Shown here piece after piece: positions 15,524 through 20,723 of a stretch of DNA of 23,579 nt. This DNA is from a virus, in IMG/VR virus record IMGVR_UViG_3300044858_002271, positions 1-23,579 of that record. The stretch is one strand, 5' to 3'. Made by a program: the position numbers and the translations under genes. Below the pieces are notes generated by a model. It saw nothing but the letters and a program-made list of their open reading frames with translations. It searched no databases and was not told where the DNA came from. The stretch's first letter is position 1, and each line of letters starts with the position of its first letter.

Positions 15524-15619
15524 ATGAAAACTATATTATTGGAGTTGCAGATGATGCTCCTTGATTTAGAATTCTATAAGTTAGTGTTAGAAATATTTAT
15601 TGGATTGGGTATTAATTGA
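15524..15619 (+). CDS. 31-residue hydrophobic peptide
   Basis: A tiny gene immediately after the sigma-factor stop with GAGGGGACTAA before its ATG. The product is 31 residues and rich in Leu, Ile and Met (LLELQMMLLDLEF, LVLEIFIGLGIN), so it may form an amphipathic or membrane helix. Its TGA overlaps the TTG start of the next gene. I do not recognise it. The RBS and coupling argue that it is translated. Confidence 0.55.
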   Translation: MKTILLELQMMLLDLEFYKLVLEIFIGLGIN

Positions 15620-16155
15620 TAATTGGATTGAGTGGCTACGCCCGTAGCGGTAAAGATACTGTTGCGGAATTGTTGTGTCTTAATTACGGATACGAAAGAG
15701 TTTCTTTTGCAGACCCTATGCGTAAAGCATTATATGTCTTAAGTCCTAAGTTAGATGGCATAGTGCGTTTATCAGAATATGTAGATGATTATGGTTGGGA
15801 TGTAGCAAAGCAGAACCAAGAGGTTCGCAGATTACTACAAGTCTTTGGCACCGAGGTTGGGCGCAAGATGTTTGGCTTAGATTTTTGGATTGACATAGCA
15901 TTAAAAGATATAGATAACAGTAAGCATGTCGTCATTAGTGATGTCAGATTTCCCAACGAGGCTGATGCAATAACTAAACTTGGTGGTTCTATATGGCGCA
16001 TCAATAGACACAACCATAGTGCTGTCAATGGACATGCATCAGAACATGCTATGGATAATTATTTATTTAATCATGTTATCTATAATGATGGAACACTTGA
16101 TGACTTAAGTGATGAAGTATTTATGTTGGCTAAACATTTAGGCTTGGACAAATAA
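15616..16155 (+). CDS. Deoxynucleoside monophosphate kinase
   Basis: A 179-residue kinase with a P-loop GYARSGKDT (7-15), then YERVSFADPMRKAL, VRRLLQVFGTEVGRKMFG and VISDVRFPNEADAI, the set of motifs of phage dNMP kinases (T4 gene 1 type). The enzyme phosphorylates dNMPs to dNDPs and feeds phage DNA synthesis. The start is a TTG overlapping the preceding peptide stop, with no better in-frame start before the P-loop. It is the last gene of the rightward replication operon and is followed by a terminator. Confidence 0.85.
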   Translation: MIIGLSGYARSGKDTVAELLCLNYGYERVSFADPMRKALYVLSPKLDGIVRLSEYVDDYGWDVAKQNQEVRRLLQVFGTEVGRKMFGLDFWIDIALKDIDNSKHVVISDVRFPNEADAITKLGGSIWRINRHNHSAVNGHASEHAMDNYLFNHVIYNDGTLDDLSDEVFMLAKHLGLDK

Positions 16156-16184
16156 AAAACCCCCGCCAAAAAGCGGGGGCTTTG
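16154..16184. terminator. Bidirectional terminator between convergent operons
   Basis: Arms CCCCCGC (16160-16166) and GCGGGGG (16173-16179) surround a CAAAAA loop. Rightward the stem is followed by CTTTG, leftward by TTTTTT, so it ends both the replication operon and the leftward Cys-rich gene, most strongly in the leftward sense. Confidence 0.9.
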
Positions 16185-16198
16185 TTGTGTCCTTATTG

Positions 16199-16351
16199 TT
16201 ATGCCAAAGCACAACCTTCTTGATGTCCCTCTGGGTGTTCTTCTGGACAACCACAATCCCTTACTGTCCATATTGGTTCATCACATTGATTGCCTGAACA
16301 GTTGTGACAAAAACAATATGTTTTAATAACTGTGTGATTACAGCATTTCAT
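16199..16351 (-). CDS. Cys-rich microprotein, 50 residues
   Basis: A 50-residue protein with nine Cys and several His, arranged as CC at 3-4, CFCHNC at 13-18, C23, CGC at 33-35 and C47. It probably binds one or two metal ions (Zn or Fe). It has its own RBS, GACAGGAGAAAAA, sharing GACAGGAG with the motif used by the other leftward genes but without the CTTAA part. A TATACT at 16399-16404 (leftward sense) may be its -10. It ends at the bidirectional terminator. Function unknown. Confidence 0.65.
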   Translation of the reverse strand: MKCCNHTVIKTYCFCHNCSGNQCDEPIWTVRDCGCPEEHPEGHQEGCALA

Positions 16352-16398
16352 TTTTTCTCCTGTCATATACCGCCAACCAATTTGATTGGCTTGGTATA

Positions 16399-16485: not shown

Positions 16486-16514
16486 TTGACAGTATAAAAT
16501 ACTGACTTTAGAAA
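16486..16514 (+). promoter_or_regulatory. Candidate rightward promoter with embedded palindrome
   Basis: TTGACA at 16486-16491, a 17-base spacer and TAGAAA at 16509-16514. A perfect 15-bp palindrome, CAGTAT-AAA-ATACTG (16490-16504), overlaps the -35 and spacer, in the position of an operator. Transcription would begin about where the hairpin at 16516-16557 begins. Confidence 0.45.
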
Positions 16515-16515
16515 T

Positions 16516-16557
16516 AGAGAAGCCTAGCAAGACAGGAGAGAATTGCTAGGCTTTTCT
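16516..16557. ncRNA. Hairpin carrying the start-associated motif in its loop
   Basis: Fifteen paired bases (one G-U), AGAGAAGCCTAGCAA with TTGCTAGGCTTTTCT, enclose a 12-base loop GACAGGAGAGAA. The 11-mer AAGACAGGAGA at 16529-16539 is identical to the core before leftward start codons. Rightward, with the promoter upstream and a TTTTCT tail, it could be a ~40-base RNA that is little more than a terminator hairpin. Leftward it would end the WhiB transcript, and its loop would be the exact complement of that core. Confidence 0.55.
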
Positions 16558-16596
16558 AAGTGCACCTAACTAATTGCTAGATGCACAAGTCTATAA

Positions 16597-16941
16597 TCAT
16601 ATCATAGTTTTAGGCTCTGTCATCTGCCATCTAATTACTTTACGCATAAACTTTCTTCTGTTTGGCGTAGTTCCACCCCATATTCCATAGGTTTCATGGG
16701 CTAATCCCCACTCCAAACAAGCCTCCATAACAGGACAATCAGAGCACATCTTGTTAATCATCTTCTCTTCAGAGTAGGTAAAAGTTTCTTGCGGTGGGTA
16801 GAAAACTTCCGTATCTATACCTTGACATATACCAGAACTAAGCAGTTTATAGTTATATCTTAAGACATAACGAGTTAGTTCATTGCCAGTTCTTGATGTT
16901 ATTTTTATTTCTTGAAGTATTTCATGGTGTTTTGGTTTCAT
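16597..16941 (-). CDS. WhiB-family regulator
   Basis: A 114-residue protein with the four WhiB cysteines (C39, C66, C69, C75; MCSDCPVMEAC) for a 4Fe-4S cluster, then the G(V/I)WGG turn (86-90) and the basic C-terminal segment TPNRRKFMRK that contacts DNA or RNA polymerase. WhiB proteins occur only in Actinobacteria and their phages, where they bind sigma region 4 and alter transcription, sometimes blocking superinfection. The start lies three bases after the upstream stop with no strong RBS, suggesting coupling. Confidence 0.9.
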   Translation of the reverse strand: MKPKHHEILQEIKITSRTGNELTRYVLRYNYKLLSSGICQGIDTEVFYPPQETFTYSEEKMINKMCSDCPVMEACLEWGLAHETYGIWGGTTPNRRKFMRKVIRWQMTEPKTMI

Positions 16942-18252: not shown

Positions 18253-18398
18253 TATTTATCTCCTGTCTTAAGTAATAACATTGGTTTATTGCAGTTTAAT
18301 TTGGGACATCTAACTATATATTTTTCCCATGGTTGCTGATAGATGAATTGCTTTCTAACAGTATCGCAGTAGCGACATACAAACTCATGCATTGGCAC
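18252..18398 (-). CDS. Zn-finger microprotein, 48 residues, GTG start
   Basis: A 48-residue protein with CRYC at 8-11 and a second pair CPKLNC at 31-36, a likely four-Cys zinc site, and ending LLLKTGDK. The GTG at 18398 is chosen because the motif (18406-18418) places AGGAG exactly seven bases away, as for its neighbours. The ATG at 18403 opens another frame and would sit only two bases from AGGAG. The last codons, CTT AAG ACA GGA, are themselves the next gene's motif. Confidence 0.6.
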   Translation of the reverse strand: MPMHEFVCRYCDTVRKQFIYQQPWEKYIVRCPKLNCNKPMLLLKTGDK

Positions 18399-18424
18399 CA
18401 CATTTCTCCTGTCTTAAGTAATGA

Positions 18425-19064: not shown

Positions 19065-19098
19065 TATTTTTCTCCTGTCTTAAGTAATAACCTACGGA

Positions 19099-19476: not shown

Positions 19477-19524
19477 TTGTTTTCTCCTGTCTGTTGGTAT
19501 TGGTATAACACTATCACACAGTTA

Positions 19525-19698: not shown

Positions 19699-19828
19699 TG
19701 CTATCCTCCTGTCTTAATACATAAATTGGTTCAGTTGGTTTTGTCTTTTCAACCCAGCCCGTTTCTTTACTCCATCTAAGGCTTGGCTCTATATCTTTAG
19801 GCTGAACTTCTACCCATTTAAGTTTCAT
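19691..19828 (-). CDS. Unknown 45-residue protein
   Basis: A 45-residue protein (MKLKWVEVQPKDIEPSLRWS ...) with three Trp and a Lys/Glu-rich body. Its C terminus VLRQEDSNE is encoded by the next gene's start-associated motif read in the LRQE frame. An exact copy of the motif stands before its own ATG (19834-19846) at five-base spacing. It overlaps the following gene by eight bases. Function unknown. Confidence 0.6.
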   Translation of the reverse strand: MKLKWVEVQPKDIEPSLRWSKETGWVEKTKPTEPIYVLRQEDSNE

Positions 19829-19852
19829 TTTATCTCCTGTCTTAAGTCAGAT

Positions 19853-20058: not shown

Positions 20059-20073
20059 TATTCATCTCCTGTC

Positions 20074-20496
20074 TTAAGCCACAACTAAAGATGGCTTAAT
20101 GGTTGTTGGCTCAGGCGTTGTTAAACTCCACCAAGCCCAGCCAATTTTTGTGTAAATGTATGCATACTCAGCCCATGAACTACGGGCATAGTCAAGGTAA
20201 TCACCTCGGAAATTAAAAACCTTGGCTTCTTGATTTGCCTCACCCCTGTCCCTGCCATAGGCAAGGCACCAGTTTTCGTTATGGTTTTTGTAATCGTTAA
20301 AGTCTTGTTTGTTTCCAATCTCCTGTCTTAATACAGAAAGATTTCCAAGATTTAAAAGTGCATCAATCTTGTCCTCATCTGTATAAAAGTCAGCCAAGGT
20401 TTGACCTACTCCCTCAGGGTAGCCGTCATAGTGGCAGTAAATCGCCCTAATCGTGCCGTCTTCGTTTTCTTTTCCAATCATGCTTCTTGTTGACAT
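20074..20496 (-). CDS. Conserved phage protein, STRS(M/N)I family
   Basis: A 140-residue protein beginning MSTRSMIGKENEDGTIRAIY, then CHYDGYPEGVGQTL, LLNLGNLSVL and CLAYGRDRGE. These match a widespread phage and bacterial protein of unknown function whose members begin STRS.I and contain YCHWDGYP. Aromatic residues cluster at the C terminus (WAEYAYIYTKIGWAWWSL). The motif variant CTTAAGACAGGGGG (20503-20516) serves as RBS. A further ATTAAGACAGGAG lies inside the gene (20320-20332), encoding LRQE. Confidence 0.75.
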   Translation of the reverse strand: MSTRSMIGKENEDGTIRAIYCHYDGYPEGVGQTLADFYTDEDKIDALLNLGNLSVLRQEIGNKQDFNDYKNHNENWCLAYGRDRGEANQEAKVFNFRGDYLDYARSSWAEYAYIYTKIGWAWWSLTTPEPTTIKPSLVVA

Positions 20497-20701: not shown

Positions 20702-20723
20702 CTTTATCTCCTGTCTTAATTCA

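Follow-up and report, generated by a model that had tools for sequence, protein, structure and literature searches.

A conserved hairpin of freshwater phages with a loop complementary to the ribosome-binding motif of its own operon

A hairpin that follows the WhiB-like gene of a phage early operon is real and conserved among related phages, and the loop that it presents on the leftward strand, U[A/U]CUCUCCUGUC, is by its letters the antisense of the ribosome-binding sites within that operon. The stem is free to change in hundreds of related freshwater phages, and the loop remains matched to the ribosome-binding site, which points to an RNA that would switch the translation of these genes as a group. 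We consider it reasonably likely that the hairpin is an antisense RNA element that acts on the phage ribosome-binding sites, lowering translation of the motif-bearing genes as the operon RNA accumulates. The pairing of loop and ribosome-binding site is well supported by comparison between genomes. From this we infer pairing in cells, a repressive sign, action in trans and the timing of the effect; repression of early-gene translation by the hairpin is probable.

The hairpin and the start motif in the window

The window, meaning the whole stretch of DNA that was analysed, is a virus record of 23.6 kb. Its rightward block holds structural and replication genes, a sigma factor and a dNMP kinase, and its leftward block holds small genes, the last of them WhiB-like. 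The hairpin lies where the rightward dNMP-kinase gene (15616-16155, + strand; phrog_139, E 1e-54) converges with the leftward operon, whose final gene ahead of the hairpin is the WhiB-like gene (16597-16941, - strand; phrog_472, E 1e-15). The same synteny, with the hairpin after the dNMP-kinase gene, is found in the relatives that show both. The element spans 16515-16558 and its functional strand appears to be the leftward (-) one, on which it reads 5'-TAGAAAAGCCTAGCAA-[TTCTCTCCTGTC]-TTGCTAGGCTTCTCTA-3'. Its arms (16515-16530 and 16543-16558) are 94% complementary over 16 positions, with one G.T, and enclose a 12-nt loop (16531-16542) that reads GACAGGAGAGAA on the + strand, including the ribosome-binding motif GACAGGAG, and UUCUCUCCUGUC in the leftward RNA, the complement of GACAGGAGA in the start motif. 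Folding was predicted at -24.8 kcal/mol (z -6.6) for the + strand and -21.6 kcal/mol (z -6.3) for the - strand, and the window contains no other perfect stem of at least 10 bp with a loop of 4-20 nt. The T-rich 3' flank reported earlier, TTTTCT, does follow the stem. Stem and U-rich flank are both seen, and the 12-nt loop falls outside the 3-8 nt limit of the terminator scanner, which is why the element is not listed there. Rfam gave nothing above gathering, its top match at the hairpin reaching 17.0 bits (E 0.78) where the gathering score is 37, and searching INPHARED with the nucleotides of the window locus returned no match.

Other structures are found at this junction. A second hairpin (16560-16587) sits between the WhiB stop and the anti-ribosome-binding-site (anti-RBS) hairpin, and also occurs beside WhiB in loci L159, L200, L220 and L222; its loop in relatives is often AAGGGGAAG, on a long and variable stem, and has been lost in the window. 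Directly after the dNMP-kinase gene, at 16156-16185, is a strong bidirectional terminator-like stem (AAAGCCCCCGC...GCGGGGGTTTT). Relatives without this insert have the anti-RBS hairpin in that place.

The earlier note described a start-associated 11-mer at the tip of the hairpin, and this is confirmed: AAGACAGGAGA occupies 16529-16539 and is the sole + strand copy in the window. With at most one mismatch the 11-mer occurs 15 times, against 0.38 expected. Its core, GACAGGAG, has one rightward copy, in the hairpin loop, and 13 leftward copies, 12 of which stand directly before a start codon. These 12 lie on the - strand at 22242-22249 (before gene 21591-22232, of the phrog_6361 family and SprT-like by eye), 21413-21420, 20985-20992, 20708-20715, 20066-20073, 19834-19841, 19706-19713, 19484-19491, 19072-19079, 18406-18413, 18260-18267 and 16357-16364, the last before a cysteine-rich gene of about 50 amino acids (16199-16351) downstream of the hairpin. 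The remaining copy (20320-20327, - strand) is intragenic, within VLRQEIG of ORF 20074-20496, and has no start codon at the usual spacing. Among 41 relatives, 276 of 278 copies precede starts as judged with a loose window. The motif is therefore of the start-associated type, repeated near many starts and conserved beyond the Shine-Dalgarno core.

The cysteine-rich gene, encoded on the - strand and beginning CCNHTVIKTYCFCHNC, is an insert between the dNMP-kinase gene and the hairpin, and loci L010 and L011-L013 carry other insert sequences at its place. The leftward block also contains a further repeated word, TTAAGACAG, with 18 leftward copies between 17368 and 21859 and no rightward copy (0.24 expected), sometimes without GGAG. 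In its place the sister clade has about 20 GTTTAAAC palindromes per 5-9 kb of leftward block, and the two words are possibly clade-specific operator or processing words beside the ribosome-binding site. An 8-codon mini-ORF with a TTG start at the loop (AGGAGAGAATTG) was considered and rejected, as the TTG in the stem becomes TCG, TCT, TGT or CCG in relatives.

Conservation of the loop and its co-change with the start motif

A search with the WhiB protein and a dNMP-kinase alignment yielded about 80 IMG/VR loci that share this gene order; these were recruited through their proteins, and therefore conservation of the loop was not built into the sample. The loop GACAGGAGAG[A/T]A is kept in 76 of the 77 loci with enough sequence, in a hairpin between the dNMP-kinase and WhiB stops, and the one exception (L031) retains the stem with a different loop. 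Stem pairs were counted in a register anchored on the loop, since MAFFT alignments of such short hairpins gapped one arm only. When a stem arm was set against the partner arm of another genome, 77% of positions paired. Within their own genomes, 16 distinct stems paired by leftward rules in 176 of 176 cells, 89.8% of them Watson-Crick, and rightward wobble contributed nothing. The inner 11 positions of 32 distinct hairpins contained 39 mismatches that are A.C on the + strand, and hence G.U on the - strand, and no G.T on the + strand. Placed on the dNMP-kinase tree, the stem has undergone 25 double Watson-Crick changes and 17 changes to leftward G.U, with none to rightward G.U. Just outside this core, position 12 often has G.T on the + strand, so the leftward core stem is taken to be 11 bp, with A.C before the outer pairs.

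The wobbles of the core stem are G.U only when read leftward, so the RNA under selection is the leftward one, with which the WhiB operon ends. The covariation that the earlier note had proposed to look for is thus present, the stem changing by paired substitutions around a kept loop. As far as substitution patterns can tell, this shows that an RNA structure is conserved on the leftward strand and that selection acts on its loop and not on its stem sequence. Such a structured RNA, exposing a stretch complementary to the ribosome-binding sites of its targets, has the features of an antisense or anti-Shine-Dalgarno RNA. A double-stranded DNA site such as a stoperator or operator was rejected, given the strand-specific wobble and the compensatory stem changes, as was a CsrA-like GGA-loop site on a sense-strand hairpin, the sense strand not being the one kept foldable.

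A sister clade (L015-like, 48 further loci) carries a hairpin at the same junction with different stems and with + strand loops containing GACTGG[A/T]. The start motif differs likewise: in clade 1 (41 loci, 311 kb of leftward DNA) there are 278 copies of GACAGGAG and 3 of GACTGGAG, and in clade 2 (20 loci, 135 kb of leftward DNA) 7 of GACAGGAG and 43 of GACTGGAG, the criterion for standing before a start being loose here and the test lying in the contrast of counts. The class-II amidotransferase gene (MCGIAGY...) has the ribosome-binding site GACTGGAG together with the loop GACTGG in every locus except L151, where the ribosome-binding site is ACAAAGGAGATAACAA and the loop region ACAAGGAGATAACAA; both are altered, and AAGGAGATAACAA is common to both. 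Loops varying independently of the start motif on a retained stem had been named as grounds for abandoning the proposal, and the opposite was found in every genome that shows both. At the level of sequence, then, loop and start motif are shown to be matched and to change together, and complementarity is upheld by co-change of RNA and target in few independent events, the clear ones being one between the clades and one in the further contig, L151.

Three more loops differ, those of L031, L132 and L135, on contigs too short to show start motifs; the L031 variant occurs in a single IMG/VR contig, with its start motifs outside it. If loop and motif are matched as proposed, the start motifs would be GGAAAGGACTAA for the L031 type, GACAGAAAGGAG for the L132 type and ACAAGGAGA for the L112 type. 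Near-miss start motifs in window-type operons are wobble-compatible in 19 of 72 cases, with G1>A occurring 24 times; since they are not restricted to wobble-compatible changes, pressure on single sites looks loose. In loci L107, L142, L148 and L151 of the sister clade, a conserved CCTGACGAAAGG (a small stem with a GACGAA loop) is found behind the anti-RBS loop. It lies within the same outer stem, making the element there two-headed.

E7-type leaders and the start-associated sequences of other actinophages

Two cultured phages of 'Ca. Planktophila', E7 and F5 (OX376640, OX376641; PMC10202952) have GACAGGAG starts and a DnaB about 50% identical to that of the window. The E7 hairpin carries the loop GACAGGAGAGTA, identical to that of some window-type relatives, and belongs to the 5' leader of an exonuclease gene that has a GACAGGAG start and lies immediately downstream. 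Its apex is found in at least 120 IMG/VR contigs, and a scan of genome contigs for the apex gave six matches in unrelated bacteria, about the chance level. When leaders were collected through the exonuclease protein, a search blind to the loop, CTCCTGTC was present in 55 of 55 distinct loci, with the anti-motif CUCCUGUC kept and the neighbouring loop bases varying (UACUC, UACC, UCACC, UUCAC and others); in L414 and L418 the first CTCCTGTC match is upstream of the hairpin. Among 76 distinct leaders chosen for CTCCTGTC, the downstream ribosome-binding site is GACAGGAG in 54 and deviates in 22 (GACAGGGG, GACGGGGG, GATAGGAG, GATGGGAG, GACGGGAG). All 22 deviating sites still pair with CUCCUGUC through G.U, every change being A>G or C>T. 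The antisense strand is the better folder in 40 of 41 leaders (G.U 81 vs 28), and double changes occur at 12 of 20 consensus pairs.

The E7-type leader has a stem of about 20 bp and only a few bases before the ribosome-binding site, so an in-cis pseudoknot would be strained; it is more likely that the pairing is in trans or that the base of the stem melts in part. A leader of this type was sought in the window before gene 9981 and was not found. In about 20 E7-type loci (for example L240:32475-32657) the exonuclease gene that follows the leader is interrupted after 61-62 codons. It continues in another frame in E7 and is a single 253-aa frame in L260, and a programmed frameshift or a split gene is possible.

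Over-conserved ribosome-binding sequences are known from other actinophages. Cluster K mycobacteriophages carry Start-Associated Sequences (SAS; GGGATAGGAGCCC) with a 13-bp consensus and unknown function (PMC3203893), and Microbacterium phages of cluster EF have GGGAAAGGACCCC (PMC7302621). Like these, GACAGGAG is an over-conserved ribosome-binding motif before a dozen non-structural genes. Unlike the cluster K SAS, about half of whose copies are tied to the ESAS element, it is another motif; it departs from the GGGATAGGAGCCC consensus and was rejected as a cluster K SAS, being the same kind of element from another family. Pope et al. found one SAS copy in four K1 phages that was reversed, without a gene start and unexplained, and did not decide between a phage RNA and a phage protein as the partner that binds SAS (PMC3203893). 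We found that the reversed copy is the apex of a strong hairpin in Adephagia, Angelica, CrimD, Validus, Curiosium and LastHope, with the loop CCTCCTATCC on the transcribed strand, and that blastn recovers the element in 101 records. The K1 hairpin overlaps an annotated hypothetical gene in some genomes, so the K1 parallel is a lead rather than proof. A 7-mer search found no anti-SAS hairpin in Pixie (K3), ZoeJ (K2), Kratio (K5), Unicorn (K6) or AnnaSerena (EF). Between genes 95 and 96 of Pixie (L227:30826) is a 14-bp perfect hairpin whose loop, on the transcribed strand, shows GGATAGG in the sense direction. This is the reverse of the K1 arrangement, and we do not claim the hairpin as anti-SAS.

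Proposed mechanism and alternative readings

We propose that the stem-loop after WhiB forms the end of the leftward early-operon transcript; it is also terminator-like, and termination is probably a second role of the stem. The loop, 5'-U[A/U]CUCUCCUGUC-3', as the antisense of GACAGGAG(A), would pair over 8-9 bp with the ribosome-binding sites of about a dozen genes in this operon, most likely in trans, whether from a stable 3'-end RNA or from one transcript to another. There it would compete with the 16S anti-Shine-Dalgarno, and accumulating operon RNA would lower the translation of the entire motif-bearing set. This leftward antisense reading is the part of the earlier interpretation that holds up, supported in the genomes compared by leftward-only G.U, by a loop kept against a changing stem and by co-change between clades. 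Duplexes with GACAGGAGAAAAA were predicted at -15.6 kcal/mol for the loop vs -9.7 kcal/mol for the 16S tail, and with GACAGGAGGUG the 16S tail is the stronger (-18.6 against -15.5 kcal/mol). The loop could therefore out-compete the ribosome at most, not all, motif sites.

The closest known systems are the icaR 3'-UTR and the C-rich loops of RNAIII in S. aureus. The icaR mRNA carries an anti-Shine-Dalgarno motif, UCCCCUG, in a C-rich 3'-end element that pairs with the Shine-Dalgarno of its own transcript, and cis, trans and other targets are allowed (PMC3868564). The C-rich loops of RNAIII (hairpins 7 and 13) pair with the ribosome-binding sites of several mRNAs (coa/rot) and block initiation (PMC2837412). 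The phage element resembles icaR in having an anti-Shine-Dalgarno sequence at an mRNA 3' end and RNAIII in directing a hairpin loop with such a sequence toward several ribosome-binding sites. However, icaR is one bacterial gene with one target, whereas the phage loop matches about a dozen sites and is kept matched by co-change across phages; RNAIII is a long, multi-hairpin bacterial RNA with its own promoter, whereas the phage element is a single operon-end or 5'-leader hairpin without sequence relation to it. The likeness is one of mode of action only, and Rfam yielded no such match. A literature search, with subscription papers such as the ZoeJ study outside its reach, did not turn up a phage element of this kind. 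A ribosome-binding site shared across an operon and matched to one phage hairpin loop, together with their co-evolution, would be new.

It is unlikely that the hairpin is nothing more than a bidirectional intrinsic terminator where the two operons converge, with an incidental or inherited loop match. The site between convergent genes, the G/C stem with a U-rich 3' flank in both directions and the presence of one strong hairpin per junction all suit a rho-independent terminator. Terminator loops need no fixed sequence, yet this 12-nt, target-matched loop persists as the stem changes around it, it tracks the start motif when that changes, and the same 8 nt recur at an unrelated 5'-leader position. 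We regard it as improbable that the loop pairs with the ribosome-binding sites in order to activate or protect, by blocking nuclease attack or holding mRNA ends together. Comparative data do not give the sign, and a cis 5'-leader arrangement exists, but the pairing covers the Shine-Dalgarno itself, as in icaR and RNAIII, where ribosome loading is blocked (PMC3868564, PMC2837412). A phage RNA-binding protein that reads the motif at starts, with the hairpin copy serving for autoregulation or sponging, would account for conservation beyond the Shine-Dalgarno core; it is about as improbable, as the strand selected to fold bears the complement rather than the motif and the deviations of E7-type ribosome-binding sites obey base-pairing rules. 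Least probable by our estimate is the other half of the earlier interpretation, a rightward decoy RNA of about 40 nt that would show the sense motif and titrate 30S subunits or a factor that binds the motif: its promoter-like letters on the + strand (16486-16514; TTGACA at 16486-16491, a 17-base spacer and TAGAAA at 16509-16514) occur in the window and also in a few close relatives, but the pair is absent from many relatives, whose hairpin begins at the dNMP-kinase stop codon or close to it, the core stem has no rightward-strand G.U, and in 40 of 41 E7-type leaders the sense strand is the poorer folder. Because the hexamers are unconserved and the rightward strand is not kept foldable, the decoy is unsupported and the promoter-like pair is not counted as a working part.

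The antisense reading may extend to a wider actinophage device, which we put forward tentatively and at less than even confidence. A gene set would share a signature ribosome-binding site, and one movable hairpin with a complementary loop would control the translation of all its members. The pair would evolve as key and lock and would have arisen or moved several times, to the 3' end of an operon, a 5' leader and cluster K1, which would explain why SAS are conserved beyond the Shine-Dalgarno. SAS have been known since 2011 as over-conserved ribosome-binding sites without a known reader, and a phage-encoded hairpin is a concrete candidate, one that brings a testable pairing rule; related cultured phage-host pairs exist. 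The loop and its ribosome-binding site could in principle be used as an orthogonal translation switch. If one loop matched to a shared ribosome-binding site does control the whole operon, it would be an economical way for these phages to time their early genes.
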